Virus record (IMG/VR): IMGVR_UViG_3300014819_000019
Location: 315 to 31,456 of that record
Direction: 5' to 3' (one strand)
DNA length: 31,142 nt
From: a virus
The translations under genes and the position numbers were made by a program. The notes under the pieces were generated by a model. It had not been told where the DNA came from. It did not search any database and was given only the letters and a program-made list of their open reading frames with translations. Of this stretch, positions 1 to 26,713 are shown one piece after another; the first letter of the stretch is position 1, and each line of letters opens with the position of its first letter.

Positions 1-1140
1 ACCAGATACAGTATCTGTTTCGATTGTTACTGTTGCCGAAGAGCCACTCAAACCTGCTGCAGGTCCTGCAGGAAGATTATCTGGAAAATATGGTAATAGA
101 TAAGTGAATGTTGATGAGTTAATAACAGTTTGAACTTTTGTAGAAATATTGTACGTATCATCGCTTACACCACGAATTTTGATTGGTGTATCGCCATTCA
201 ATCCGTGTGGAGTTGCTGTTACAACTGTTACAACACTTCCTGGTGTTGCTCCGTCTCCAGAAATAATACTTGAGATGTTGACTGGATCTGAAGCAAATGC
301 TCCAACGATTTCCCACTCTGGTCTCCGCTTTGCGAATCCTAGTGGTTCTGCTGGATATTTTTGATCAATGTCTCTTCCAGAAGTTCTATTAAAGGCATTT
401 GAGACCTTGCTATAATACATGTCAAGGTCGGTTAGATCATAACCAGATTTAACATTTACACCATCTACATATTCGAAGCAAGTTAGTTTGTGGTGAGAAA
501 ATGTTGGGCGAGATTGATTAATAAGAGAGAAATTTTGACTGTCAGTATAGACTAATCCGCTTTCACTTCCATCAAAAATACTAAACTGCCAGAAATAACA
601 GGCACCAGTGATTCTGAAAATCGCACTGGTGGGGACATTAGAATCAGTTGGATTTGGAACATATTTTGGGCGAATTTTAGTTTTTCTAAGATCAAGCCCA
701 ACAATTGAAGTTCCACGAGGTACAACAACACCTCCGTAAACACTATTAAACTTGTAAAGAATATTATTTGATTGAGTTAAATCGAAATTAGAATCTAGAG
801 AAAGTGTTAACTCATTTTGTGCTGCACTTACAGATCCTCCAGGAGAAATAGAAATCGCATTTCCACCATTGTCTTGAATCAAATATCCTGGACGGTTATC
901 AATTACATGTTCTCCAGGAAATAGTAAAATTGTTGTTTTTTCAGTAATATCATTATCGCTGCCTCTCAAATATGAAAATCTTGCTGCTTCTAAAAGTGCC
1001 CTTTGTATGGTTTTAAAGGGCTTTGTCATCGAGTTGCCCTGATTTTCAACACCATCAGTAGCATCAAGATCATTTGGATTAACATAAAGAATACGACCTT
1101 CTGTATTCTTTATAAAATTCTCTAACTTATTAAGAGGCAT
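1..1140 (-). CDS. Virion structural protein, N-terminal part (truncated by window edge)
   Basis: The minus-strand frame is open from an ATG at 1140 to the window edge, giving 380 codons with no stop; the 3' end lies outside. The N terminus (MPLNKLENFIKNTEGRILY, then NPNDLDATDG and KPFKTIQRALLEAARFSYLRG) is the pattern I associate with a large structural protein of cyanomyoviruses. The segment reading TTILLFPGEH, with later SIVGLDLRKTKIRP, suggests a parallel beta-helix of the pectate-lyase type, as in tail-fibre or decoration proteins; this is inference. A late-type motif lies 33 bases upstream, consistent with late expression. The exact position in the virion cannot be told from this part. 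Confidence 0.8.
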   Translation of the reverse strand, partial: MPLNKLENFIKNTEGRILYVNPNDLDATDGVENQGNSMTKPFKTIQRALLEAARFSYLRGSDNDITEKTTILLFPGEHVIDNRPGYLIQDNGGNAISISPGGSVSAAQNELTLSLDSNFDLTQSNNILYKFNSVYGGVVVPRGTSIVGLDLRKTKIRPKYVPNPTDSNVPTSAIFRITGACYFWQFSIFDGSESGLVYTDSQNFSLINQSRPTFSHHKLTCFEYVDGVNVKSGYDLTDLDMYYSKVSNAFNRTSGRDIDQKYPAEPLGFAKRRPEWEIVGAFASDPVNISSIISGDGATPGSVVTVVTATPHGLNGDTPIKIRGVSDDTYNISTKVQTVINSSTFTYLLPYFPDNLPAGPAAGLSGSSATVTIETDTVSG

Positions 1141-1511: not shown

Positions 1512-1783
1512 TACTCGCGGTCGGATTCGAACCGACACTGTGAAGATTTTCTTACCACTACAAGTTTCCTTGCCCCTACGGTTTGTGGTCTGGACTATAC
1601 CTTCACCATACTTTTCAGTTTAGGTGCTCCCCGTCTAGTCTCTACACCTTCATCTTGCGATGCTTGGCTCGGTATTGCCATTTCACAGGTTTCACCGAAT
1701 TTGAGGAATTACACTCATAAGGTTTCCCAAATGAGGCTCAATTTTACATAAGTCTTCTGTCTCTGCCGTTGGACTACGCGAGC
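1512..1783 (-). tRNA. tRNA gene split by a group I intron; anticodon UAA after splicing (nominally Leu)
   Basis: The two exons are 1751-1783 plus the U at 1750, and 1512-1550. The acceptor GCTCGCG pairs with CGCGAGT (G1 pairs U72 as a wobble), followed by discriminator A. The D stem is GTC/GAC, the anticodon stem GAAGA/TCTTC, and the T arm GTCGG-TTCGAAT-CCGAC. Removing the intron gives the seven-base loop CTTAAAA, with anticodon UAA reading UUA. No CCA is encoded. The oddity is a variable region of only five bases (ACAGT), whereas leucine tRNAs normally carry a long variable arm. The amino-acid identity is therefore tentative although the tRNA fold itself is clear. Confidence 0.85.
1551..1749 (-). 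ncRNA. Group I self-splicing intron (IC3-like) in the tRNA anticodon loop, 199 nt
   Basis: The core matches bacterial tRNA introns of subgroup IC3, as in Azoarcus tRNA-Ile and cyanobacterial tRNA-Leu. Visible elements in order: guide segment GAGCC, CAAATTCGGTGAAACC, ATGGCAATACCGAGCCAAGC (P/Q and P4-P6 region), the R element GGTGTAGAGACTAGACGG at 1631-1648, and the S element GAAGGTATAGTCC at 1592-1604. The exon end CUU pairs with GAG of the guide, giving the required U-G pair at the 5' splice site. The intron ends in G at 1551. No endonuclease ORF is inside. It sits after U34, the same site as the cyanobacterial tRNA-Leu(UAA) intron. Confidence 0.92.
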
Positions 1784-10881: not shown

Positions 10882-12453
10882 TTAGAATACTACATTATAG
10901 TTCATTTGAGAAAATAACACGTACATATTATCTGGATTTGATGCCGAAATATTAGGCACAGAGTTTGCTTGTCCACCAGTGTTTCCAGATGGAGCATATT
11001 GTATTTCTTGTTGGGATGGAGGTACTACTACAACATTTGGTTTTGCTTTTGGTAACGGGCCAACAGTTGTTGATTTTTCGACAGAACCTTCTGATTTGAG
11101 TGGTTGTACTAATGCTTCAGAATTAAATATAACGGATGCATTTGAAGAAGTTATAGAAGGAAATGTCACACTTGTCTGAGTTCCCTCTGGTTTTTGCGAT
11201 TCTTGAACATTTTGATTTTGTTGATCTTGAGCGTTTATTTGGCCCAAAGATAAATTCATGGTTCCATACTTTGGTTTTTGACTAAAATCTTGTTCCGTTT
11301 CTTTTTTTTGCGATTTTTGTTCAACTTTTGGTGTTACTGGTTGTGCTTTTGCGGATGTTCCTAAAAACTTATCAGAAAGACCTTTACTAAACTCCTCACC
11401 TTTACCATATGCAAGGGCACCAGCAACAACTCCACTTCCAGGAATTGGAATTGCAGATCCTAGTGTAAATGCCGCCGCCGATGTTAACATTCCACCAACT
11501 GTTCCTGCAACTGCCCTCTTTGGATCTTCTCCTTTCGAAATATCATAAGCAGTAAATGCAGATCCAGTTAAAAGGGGAAGACCAAAACCTCTTGCTGCTC
11601 CCCCTAATCTAGAAAATGCTCTTTTACCTATACCAAGAATTCCTCCTTCTACTTCTCCTTTAGCAGTACCTTTTATGGCGGATTCTACCGCAGTGGCTTT
11701 TCCACCCCCTCCTCCAGTTGGTTTAGATTCTTTTGGTTTTAGTCCAAATGTTTCCGCAAGTTTTACCCCAGCACCCTTAACAGCATTTAAAAGTGCTTCT
11801 ATTGGTTTTACAAATAAATTTTTACGAACCGCATTAAATATAGAACCTACTGTTCTGGAAACTATACTCGTTAAAAGGGAAAATCCACCTCTTAAGGCAA
11901 GATATATTCCACCAATGATCGCAATATTTTTAAGGACATTATTTCTAATTCCTTCAAGTTTTTTTTGGTTATTTTGACCAAGTGCTCTTAGAGTTTCAAT
12001 ACCTTGATTGATTAACCAACCACTCAAAAGAGTTATAAAGAATCCTTGTAAACTTACAAAAATTCTTTGTGCTTTTTGTGATATTTTTTGAGCAGGAGCA
12101 AGAAGTGCAGATTGCATCTTTCTTTCGATAATGCTCTCTTTTCCAGACCTTAATGCTTGTTCAGCAAGAATTCTTTCTTGATTTTGTTTTAATATTTCTC
12201 TTTGTCTCTCTAAACCAGAATCAGTTGCAATAGAATTCGAAAGCACACCCAAGGATGCACTCAAATCTCTCATTTGCTGAGAAATACCAGTCAGTTGATT
12301 TGAGATCGTTGCAAGAGCAAGTTGGTTTCTATTTAAGGCTGCAGTTTCTCCAGAGTTTTCGGCAGAAGCAGCATTAGATCTAAAAGCACTAGAAGATATA
12401 GTTCTTCTAGCTACTCTAATACCCCCCAGTATTGGTGATGAAAACTCAGCCAT
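10882..12453 (-). CDS. Putative tape-measure or hub protein with membrane-active segments
   Basis: 523 residues. The N terminus contains coiled-coil-prone sequence (LATISNQLTGISQQMRDLSA, ERQREILKQNQERILAEQA). Hydrophobic segments follow at about 135-160 (IFVSLQGFFITLLSGWLI) and 175-200 (NIAIIGGIYLALRGGFSLL), then a glycine/alanine-rich hydrophobic region (TAYDISKGEDPKRAVAGTVG, TLGSAIPIPGSGVVAGALAY). The C terminus is disordered and Q/P-rich. Long helices plus membrane-insertable segments fit a tape-measure or pilot protein, and no other gene in the tail operon is a better gp29 counterpart. It shares the motif G...(T/S)GW.IN with the hydrolase encoded next. The start overlaps the previous gene by eight bases. 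Confidence 0.6.
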   Translation of the reverse strand: MAEFSSPILGGIRVARRTISSSAFRSNAASAENSGETAALNRNQLALATISNQLTGISQQMRDLSASLGVLSNSIATDSGLERQREILKQNQERILAEQALRSGKESIIERKMQSALLAPAQKISQKAQRIFVSLQGFFITLLSGWLINQGIETLRALGQNNQKKLEGIRNNVLKNIAIIGGIYLALRGGFSLLTSIVSRTVGSIFNAVRKNLFVKPIEALLNAVKGAGVKLAETFGLKPKESKPTGGGGGKATAVESAIKGTAKGEVEGGILGIGKRAFSRLGGAARGFGLPLLTGSAFTAYDISKGEDPKRAVAGTVGGMLTSAAAFTLGSAIPIPGSGVVAGALAYGKGEEFSKGLSDKFLGTSAKAQPVTPKVEQKSQKKETEQDFSQKPKYGTMNLSLGQINAQDQQNQNVQESQKPEGTQTSVTFPSITSSNASVIFNSEALVQPLKSEGSVEKSTTVGPLPKAKPNVVVVPPSQQEIQYAPSGNTGGQANSVPNISASNPDNMYVLFSQMNYNVVF

Positions 12454-25078: not shown

Positions 25079-26713
25079 ATGTATAGATCACAAAGAATTG
25101 TCGTTGTTGGTGGCGGCACTGCTGGTTGGTTCTCAGCAACAACTTTAAAAAGATTTTTTCCAGAAAGAGATATAACCGTTATTGAAAGTCCCAAAGTCCC
25201 GATTATTGGCGTAGGAGAAAGTACCTTAGGATACTTTACTTACTGGTTACATGCAATGGGTATTGATGAAAAAGTTCTTTTCCAATACACAGACGCTTCT
25301 TATAAATCCAGTATTAAGTTTACGGACTTTTACAAAAAAGATGCTGGAGGATTTCACTATCCATTTGGCAGACCATGGACTCCTAACGAACTTTTTGGAG
25401 ATATTGGTGCTAAAGCTTGGCAGTATAAAAAAGTTTTTTATCCAGAAACTCCAGTAGAAGATTACTGCAGAACAATATATCCTCATATGCCATTGATTGA
25501 AAATAATAAAATAAACAAAAATGAGGAAGGAAAACTAGAAGATTATACATTTATACATGCAAATGCATATCATTTTGATGCTGTTAAGTTTGGAATATTT
25601 CTAAGAGATCATCTATGCGTTCCAAATGGAGTTAAACACATTACGGCGGAAGTAAAGAAAGTTGTATCGGATGAAAATGGAGTTAAAGAAGTCGTTCTTG
25701 ATGATGGAAGAGTCATTCAAGGTGATTTATTCGTTGATTGTACTGGATGGAAAAGTCTTCTGATAGGTGAAGAAATGGGAGAACCTTTCTTATCCTACGA
25801 TCACCTTATTCCAAACAATAAAGCTTGGGCAACAAAAATTCCATATACAGATAAAGAAAAAGAACTTGAACCATATACCAACTGCATAGCATTGGGAAAT
25901 GGATGGGTTTGGAATATTCCTCTCTGGTCAAGAATTGGAACTGGGTATGTCTATTCTGATAAGTACATCTCAAAAGAAAATGCTCTAGAAGAGTTTAAAA
26001 GATACCTTAAATCAGATAAAATGAGCCATTATGATCCAAACAGAAATGTAGATGATCTTGAGTTCAAAGATATCAACATGCGTATTGGAATTCATCGCAG
26101 AACCTGGGTTAAAAATGTAGTTGCCATCGGTCTTGCTGCTGGATTTATTGAACCATTGGAAAGCACAGGTTTATACACTGTTCACGAATTTCTAATGAAA
26201 CTGGTGAGTTACATAGATAGAGATTATTATAATCAGTTTGAGATTGATTCATATAATGCGACAACAAGATTAATGTTTGATGGTCTATGTAAGTTTGTTG
26301 CCGTTCATTATGCTCTCTCACACAGAGACGATACTGAATACTGGAGAGATGTTAGAAAAAGATCTTATGCATCGTATTTAATCGATGATGTTCAAACAAA
26401 TCAAGCAATAGAACTTCAGTATTGTGTCGACCAGTTTGGAGAACTTGTTGCTAGAAAATCGCATGTCCATGAACACAATCTACGTTCAGGCAATCACTGC
26501 ATTTTAAATGGTCTGAACTATAATGTAGTTAGTATGGAAAATGTTGTTCATGATGGATTCTATGGATATGGGCCAAGTGTTGAGGATGCTAAGAAAACGA
26601 TTAATCAGATGATGGTTAAGTGGGAGGAAAAGCAAAAAGAATGGCAAAAAATTGCCGATGAATCTCCAACTCAAATGCAATACTTATACGATAATTTTTA
26701 CAAGCATTTTTAA
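25079..26713 (+). CDS. prnA: Flavin-dependent tryptophan-halogenase-like enzyme
   Basis: 544 residues (PrnA has 538). The FAD-binding motif is VVVGGGTAGWFSA (8-20). Lys76 in DASYKSSIKF matches the essential lysine of PrnA and RebH that forms the chloramine or guides HOCl. The halogenase WxWxIP motif is WVWNIP (276-281). AGFIEPLESTGLY (354-366) holds the glutamate near the substrate. GVGEST (44-49) is also conserved. The enzyme would halogenate an indole-type substrate using FADH2 from a separate reductase, which is not found here. Similar genes occur in some cyanophages. The true substrate is unknown, and a peptide or other aromatic is possible. Confidence 0.9.
   Translation: MYRSQRIVVVGGGTAGWFSATTLKRFFPERDITVIESPKVPIIGVGESTLGYFTYWLHAMGIDEKVLFQYTDASYKSSIKFTDFYKKDAGGFHYPFGRPWTPNELFGDIGAKAWQYKKVFYPETPVEDYCRTIYPHMPLIENNKINKNEEGKLEDYTFIHANAYHFDAVKFGIFLRDHLCVPNGVKHITAEVKKVVSDENGVKEVVLDDGRVIQGDLFVDCTGWKSLLIGEEMGEPFLSYDHLIPNNKAWATKIPYTDKEKELEPYTNCIALGNGWVWNIPLWSRIGTGYVYSDKYISKENALEEFKRYLKSDKMSHYDPNRNVDDLEFKDINMRIGIHRRTWVKNVVAIGLAAGFIEPLESTGLYTVHEFLMKLVSYIDRDYYNQFEIDSYNATTRLMFDGLCKFVAVHYALSHRDDTEYWRDVRKRSYASYLIDDVQTNQAIELQYCVDQFGELVARKSHVHEHNLRSGNHCILNGLNYNVVSMENVVHDGFYGYGPSVEDAKKTINQMMVKWEEKQKEWQKIADESPTQMQYLYDNFYKHF

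Follow-up and report, generated by a model that had tools for sequence, protein, structure and literature searches.

How did a T4-like cyanophage come to carry a group I intron in one of its tRNA genes, and by what route did the intron arrive there? The DNA analysed here, called the window below, is a stretch of 31,142 nucleotides within a virus record of 45,195 bases. On its minus strand, a tRNA-Leu(UAA) gene (1783-1512) is interrupted after U34 by a group I intron of 199 nt (1749-1551). The insertion site after U34 of UAA is presumably the one occupied by the ancient tRNA-Leu intron of cyanobacteria and plastids. An earlier note on this sequence had offered two origins, namely capture of a host intron together with its tRNA, or movement of an intron between tRNAs.

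The split tRNA-Leu(UAA) gene and its intron

The 5' exon (1783-1750, minus strand) ends with U34, and the 3' exon (1550-1512, minus strand) comprises AAAA, the anticodon stem, a variable loop of 5 nt, the T arm and A73. Joined, the two exons form a tRNA of 73 nt with a 7-bp acceptor stem, a 5-bp anticodon stem and the loop CUUAAAA. Because the variable loop has only 5 nt, this tRNA-Leu belongs to class I; bacterial Leu tRNAs are normally of class II. ARAGORN with introns allowed (-i) reported a tRNA-Leu(taa) at c[1511,1784] with an intron of 199 nt, and its default settings returned for the window only the neighbouring tRNA-Met and tRNA-Ile genes and missed the split gene. The earlier note had read a group I intron after U34 of tRNA-Leu(UAA), free of a homing endonuclease, and had proposed a covariance search with a group I model. 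Both readings hold: the full Rfam model RF00028 (group I intron) matches at 1759-1558 on the minus strand with 62 bits (E 1.2e-13; gathering score 50), and no endonuclease gene lies inside the ORF-less 199 nt, which end with the omega-G. The size, the lack of room for P5abc and the tRNA insertion site are consistent with subgroup IC3.

That all core elements are readable within 199 nt, as had also been claimed, is confirmed by pairing. The window sequence forms each of the helices P2, P3, P4, P5, P6, P7, P8 and P9; P1 is short, with three contiguous pairs to the 5' exon. At the 5' splice site U34 pairs with guide G11, and the terminal base of the intron is G199. Among the pairings tried on the same sequence, two did not form: one in outer P6a and an initial version of P9b. 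The structure was read from the window alone and compared with an alignment that was not fitted to it, made of 53 phage tRNA introns, each at most 240 nt long and pairwise less than 85% identical. These rows stem from 88 representatives of 192 introns, 55 of them phage or viral, minus two Arg(CCU) representatives. In this alignment 93.3% of 2569 cells pair, against 28.9-40.2% when the partners are slid by 1-3 columns, and changes on both sides of a pair occur in 610 cells, compared with a shuffled mean of 200.6, and in 38 of 50 pairs. P3 (1708-1703 with 1632-1627, minus strand), which encloses P4-P6, has six of six pairs changed on both sides and 95.9% of its cells paired. P7 (1640-1636 with 1597-1593, minus strand), the core helix that makes the P3/P7 pseudoknot, is paired in 100% of cells, with three of five pairs invariant and one changed on both sides. 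P9 (1588-1585 with 1558-1555, minus strand) and its two inner hairpins are paired in 100%, 99.0% and 97.7% of cells, and P4 (98.9%), P5 and the base of P8 (97.1%) likewise exceed 95%. Pairing is less complete in the outer part of P2 (73.5%), in inner P8 (67-71%) and at the tip of P6a (43.9%). The guide/exon test of P1 gave a mixed result, since CAU introns pair 15/22 with the Leu exon and 17/22 with their own. Overall, covariation supports the P3-P8 core with its P3/P7 pseudoknot. The pre-tRNA of 272 nt would splice itself by guanosine-initiated transesterification and restore a class I tRNA-Leu(UAA).

The split gene is part of a tRNA cluster. Upstream of it lie tRNA-Met(CAU) (1905-1831, minus strand; ARAGORN) and tRNA-Ile(UAU) (2025-1935, minus strand; ARAGORN, and Rfam tRNA with 56.2 bits), and 3' of the cluster a tail fibre gene (1-1140, minus strand; PHROG 529, tblastn) runs open to the window edge. 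T4-like baseplate, tail and single-strand DNA-binding proteins are also encoded (PHROG). The tail fibre matches 460 phage records by tblastn, 453 named for Synechococcus, Prochlorococcus or cyanophage and 7 'Marine', which together with the T4-like proteins agrees with the cyanophage proposed from the sequence.

Several features of the surroundings are recorded in their own right. The tRNA-Ile(UAU) has a long, class-II-like variable arm with an 11-bp near-tandem repeat (ATTAGCGCCAG ATTAGCGCGAG), and S-SRM01 holds a 90-nt homologue of it (L005 458-547); a class-II-like tRNA-Ile beside a class I tRNA-Leu is the reverse of the usual rule. Elsewhere in the window, a glutamine riboswitch aptamer (RF01739; 23254-23207, minus strand) scores 38.3 bits against a cut-off of 35, and a protein of 544 aa (25079-26713, plus strand) matches PHROG 2928, tryptophan halogenase, with E 1.6e-140. 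Photosystem genes occur in relatives whose introns are close: PF00124 was found in five of 16 records searched, namely G001, G002 and G007 (holding L434, L440 and L182), S-SRM01 and S-T4; the window's own fragment gave no match to it.

Relatives of the intron and movement between tRNA scaffolds

Similar introns are numerous in viral tRNA genes. Two pattern scans of IMG/VR each gave at least 120 stretches, and a scan of the genome collection at least 116. A finder that required the anticodon and acceptor stems of a tRNA together with a P7 motif and a terminal omega-G accepted 249 tRNAs among the matches listed (162 in IMG/VR contigs, 83 in genomes and 4 in named records or the window), a set that excludes introns without AGTCCAGAC or without an AGTNG..G end. 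The viral rows among the matches listed are dominated by Leu(UAA) interrupted after U34 (113, of which 92 are class II and 21 class I), followed by CAU after U33 (13; that of L039 is placed at 11037-11243), Arg(UCU) after U34 (12) or U33 (3), Asn(GUU) after U35 (6), Arg(CCU) (3), Lys(UUU) (2) and a few unclear cases. These counts were made after a two-base shift of 20 rows to U34, which were reassigned to Leu because their shared start, GACTT before and ATG after the splice site, and their AAAAT exon fit Leu. The 'Tyr(ata)'-type isotypes that ARAGORN gave to class II Leu introns were accordingly rejected as artefacts of 5' splice choice.

In a sample of 14 viral loci, 14 of 17 neighbouring proteins match PHROG; several are clear phage genes, including tape measure, PhoH-like and homing nuclease genes, and others match weakly. 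Contamination of the IMG/VR set by prophages or host DNA is possible at some loci. For instance, L020 and L046, whose Arg(CCU) introns lie close to where their 42-kb contigs begin, resemble host tRNAs located at the ends of prophages, and L020 clusters with a bacterial intron in the tree.

Among named phage isolates, tRNA introns look rare. A blastn search of 50,697 records found them in the huge phages LR756501 (LR756503 gives the same match) and LR756511, in Agrobacterium phage Atu_ph07 (Leu, with an intron of 278 nt) and in Gordonia phage Daredevil (Lys, with one of 238 nt); the other named-phage matches inspected held no intron-bearing tRNA (six loci without a tRNA, five with an intronless one). 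The Lys(UUU) intron of Daredevil, known from ARAGORN only, is absent from the 249-row set because of the motif filters. A family model, R1, recognised introns outside its training in Atu_ph07 (160.9 bits) and Daredevil (125.9 bits), and its two matches in LR756511 (103.9 and 49 bits) are one intron split by its ORF. RF00028 at its cut-off matched none of the tRNA introns of Atu_ph07, Daredevil, LR756511 and LR756501 (records L007, L008, L012 and L015). A second group I intron of LR756501 (718155-718390; L310, L451) scores 96.1 bits with RF00028, and no tRNA was found around it.

Outside viruses, tRNA-intron-like matches (L193-L308) are listed in genomes of Omnitrophota, the candidate phyla radiation, Bacteroidota, Chloroflexi and Acidobacteria. 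None of the genome-scan matches listed is cyanobacterial by title, and the pattern is perhaps unsuited to Cyanobacteria. Part of the intron core also matches 1,271 records of the plasmids collection, most of them from enterobacteria; identity is about 74% over roughly bases 81-178 of the query in the enterobacterial rows listed, and 71-80% in Bradyrhizobium plasmids.

Intronless homologues of the split gene also exist. In five named cyanophages a class I tRNA-Leu(UAA) runs continuously across the junction of ACTT and AAAAT, with identities to the joined exons of the window of 66/73 (S-CREM1), 63/74 (S-SRM01), 62/74 (S-T4), 60/73 (P-SSM7) and 59/74 (Sf-FR1). S-SRM01 and S-T4 have the gene order of the window, that is tRNA-Ile, tRNA-Met, tRNA-Leu and tail fibre. 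Two further observations concern S-SRM01: a free-standing HNH gene (L005 594-1013) lies inside its tRNA-Ile/Met/Leu cluster, upstream of the intronless tRNA-Leu, and a broken-up psbA-like (PF00124) region at 208546-209709 adjoins two weak family-model matches.

The closest introns do not follow their tRNAs. Identity of the window intron reaches 97.0% with the L166 intron and 95.5% with the L154 intron, both of which sit in class II tRNAs whose exons are only 61.9% and 63.1% identical to those of the window. Conversely, L435 shares 69 of 73 exon letters with the window, yet its intron is only 92.6% identical. With 97% identity between introns against 62% between exons, introns must have passed from one tRNA scaffold to another. 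A tree built from 44 close introns, 13 of class I and 31 of class II, contains five changes of tRNA class, at least three of them forced by well-supported branches, and a single clade of class I introns is rejected (p-AU 0.0055). Nearly identical introns have thus moved laterally between class I and class II phage tRNA-Leu genes, which bears out the second origin named in the earlier note. These close relatives keep the setting of tRNA-Leu and tail fibre, often with baseplate genes on the other side, and their tail fibres are mostly 48-75% identical to that of the window (tblastn). A wider tree, with 113 rows, places the window together with 14 phage introns (support 94/99); phage and bacterial introns are interleaved there, with at least nine changes forced, patchy support and an unsettled bootstrap.

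HNH nucleases and the manner of movement

An endonuclease match lies inside 33 of the 249 introns listed. Where it lies in a phage Leu intron, it is an HNH-type protein of about 160 aa (Pfam HNH_3 in two tested), and a bacterial Arg(UCU) intron carries PDDEXK_5 (Pfam, one tested). Across four phage HNH proteins tested, Pfam named HNH in two; L432 gave a sub-threshold HTH only and S-SRM01 nothing. Where a phage Leu intron is ORF-less, a homologous HNH gene often stands free beside the tRNA instead. Using the same 11 queries, mostly from intron-encoded copies, on listed matches of separate scans that cover different lineages, and leaving out loci with less than 450 nt on a side as well as, for ORF-less counts, introns longer than 320 nt, an HNH was found within 250 nt on either side at 34 of 87 ORF-less Leu intron loci versus 2 of 102 intronless tRNA-Leu loci. 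After clustering by flank similarity the figures are 15 of 38 intron clusters versus 2 of 99 intronless ones (Fisher p 3.7e-8). HNH edges downstream of the intron were counted at 28 of 98 loci for 0-250 nt and 12 of 95 for 250-500 nt, and upstream at 12 of 103 within 250 nt; every other 250-nt bin out to 2 kb holds none or one. Since the edges are piled up next to the intron, the association does not merely reflect HNH-rich genomes. A tree of 44 HNH proteins (17 in introns, 25 downstream, 2 upstream), from a set seeded with an intron-encoded query and hence biased towards its kin, shows six changes into or out of the intron, at least four of them forced.

In the window, tblastn with 11 nuclease queries detected no convincing HNH; its five matches had E 0.003-0.59, and the best of them (E 0.003) falls inside the intron itself. 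A single HNH query, run without a positive control, found no HNH in the 45,195-base record, which may be a fragment. The close relatives L166, L154, L059, L171 and L106 also have no HNH within 250 nt; L432 and L119 are relatives with an adjacent one, and in L146 the HNH is encoded by the intron. The arrangement of an ORF-less intron and an adjacent free-standing nuclease is present in the family and, with the queries used, was not found in the phage of the window. L416 holds an intronless class I tRNA-Leu (insertion site 4387, minus strand) followed 75 nt downstream by an HNH, which may be a nuclease that lacks its intron and would make a natural test case for self-cleavage.

We consider that the intron is probably a mobile, ORF-less group I intron of a T4-like cyanophage tRNA-Leu(UAA), self-splicing and spread by homing in trans. 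Splicing of the pre-tRNA would keep the host gene functional as a class I tRNA-Leu(UAA). In relatives, the HNH gene, which sits in the intron itself or at most a few hundred nt from the tRNA, would encode a nuclease that cuts, at the anticodon region, the tRNA-Leu genes of co-infecting phages that lack the intron, and the intron would shield the donor's own tRNA gene from the cut. Repair would then copy the intron with or without the HNH gene, and the window copy would be one without an HNH partner nearby. Its partner may have been lost, or may act from another phage, or the movement may need none.

The last option leads to a different explanation, which we regard as unlikely and still the most serious competitor: the intron would pass from one phage tRNA-Leu gene to another with no nuclease involved, either by reverse splicing into tRNA or by ordinary recombination during co-infection through the shared GACTTAAAATC anticodon arm and flanks, and the HNH neighbours would be separate selfish genes that favour the same conserved spot. 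No HNH was found close to the intron in the window or in several of its closest relatives, the exons share little outside the anticodon arm, and the same core occurs at several tRNA isotypes, as it would after ectopic insertion; all of this would fit. Nevertheless, HNHs cluster at Leu sites that bear an intron and hardly occur at those without one, and the adjacent HNHs are homologous to the intron-encoded ones, both of which speak against this explanation.

There is a rather slim chance that the intron is old, vertically inherited and now immobile in this clade, its similarity being kept by ribozyme constraint. Close relatives do occupy the same locus 5' of the tail fibre gene, and the one-query search without a positive control found no HNH in the record. 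However, an intron identity of 97% lies far above the 62% of the interrupted tRNAs, the closest tRNA sister, L435, has a more distant intron, the tree test rejects a single class I clade, and related phages hold intronless homologues.

Capture of a cyanobacterial host tRNA-Leu together with its ancient intron, the first origin proposed in the earlier note, seems very improbable. The intron of cyanobacteria and plastids, to which earlier papers by Kuhsel, Xu, Paquin and co-workers are reportedly tied, likewise interrupts a tRNA with the anticodon UAA, presumably at the same site, and is likewise a short ORF-less group I intron. In contrast, the intron of the window interrupts a class I tRNA of a phage and belongs to a phage family that crosses scaffolds and isotypes. 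Capture is not supported because the tRNA is of a phage type, class I with a 5-nt variable loop, and its nearest homologues are intronless cyanophage tRNAs (66/73 in S-CREM1); the intron, moreover, groups with phage introns (94/99). The cyanobacterial comparison used a single, provisional Anabaena intron sequence, which shows no close similarity to the window intron, is at most 65% identical to any row, takes no well-supported place in the tree and found no match in the plasmids collection. Least credible of all is decay of the intron to a non-splicing remnant within a dead tRNA gene: P1 is short, but all core helices pair in the window copy, and the stems of the exons are intact and differ from those of relatives in a compensatory way.

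Precedents and meaning for phage tRNA genes

Homing in trans has a precedent in cyanophage S-PM2, whose F-CphI/psbA pair defines collaborative homing (PMC6083498, PMC3984707). In both cases a phage group I intron lacks an ORF and a free-standing nuclease gene lies next to the gene that the intron interrupts, and the intron is predicted to mask the cut site here too. F-CphI, however, has an Endo VII motif, whereas the tRNA-intron family has HNH proteins with a predicted tRNA anticodon target and occurs in many lineages. Phage protein genes harbour group I introns with the same core; for example, an intron of the Pelagibacter phage HTVC120P, which sits between annotated pieces of a capsid gene, scores 163.7 bits with the family model. 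The difference lies in the host gene, a tRNA: splicing has no reading frame to preserve, and the RNA that results is the final product. T4 SegB is reportedly a homing endonuclease of the T4 tRNA region; the likeness is nuclease-driven inheritance of such a region, and no intron is said to be involved there.

The earlier note also thought a tRNA intron in a cyanophage remarkable. According to a 2014 review, all phage introns seen by then were in protein genes despite the many phage tRNA genes (PMC3984707), which favours that view; its novelty is reduced by the introns in tRNA genes of Lak megaphages, reported in 2019 as enigmatic and with no stated class (PMC6784885), and by the IMG/VR scans, each with at least 120 stretches. 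With stricter filters, the whole Lak-A1 record gave no RF00028 match and, with the family model, one weak match of 32.6 bits at a locus where ARAGORN finds no tRNA. The Lak introns were therefore not taken as the same family, the Lak-A1 searches having yielded no tRNA intron of it. A literature search for prior group I introns in phage tRNAs, covering mainly open-access papers, returned the Lak report alone. All components are known, and a tRNA-centred, scaffold-hopping family of phage introns with paired HNHs appears to be new.

Phage tRNA genes carry a large, laterally moving intron family, and phage tRNA counts change because intron-bearing tRNA genes go unannotated. The route by which a free-standing nuclease and an intron become joined is said to be unclear (PMC10448857). 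Since the family shows both states of the HNH gene, with at least four switches between them, the association of nuclease and intron becomes testable with natural pairs. A more tentative idea, which we hold to be possible rather than probable, is that phage tRNA anticodon loops may be a battleground in which an ORF-less intron and its adjacent HNH form a two-part element that cuts the tRNA genes of co-infecting rivals at the anticodon and keeps the phage's own tRNA gene shielded. If this were true, the moves of HNH genes into and out of the intron would show composite mobile introns forming and falling apart, and phages would also be a source of bacterial tRNA introns.
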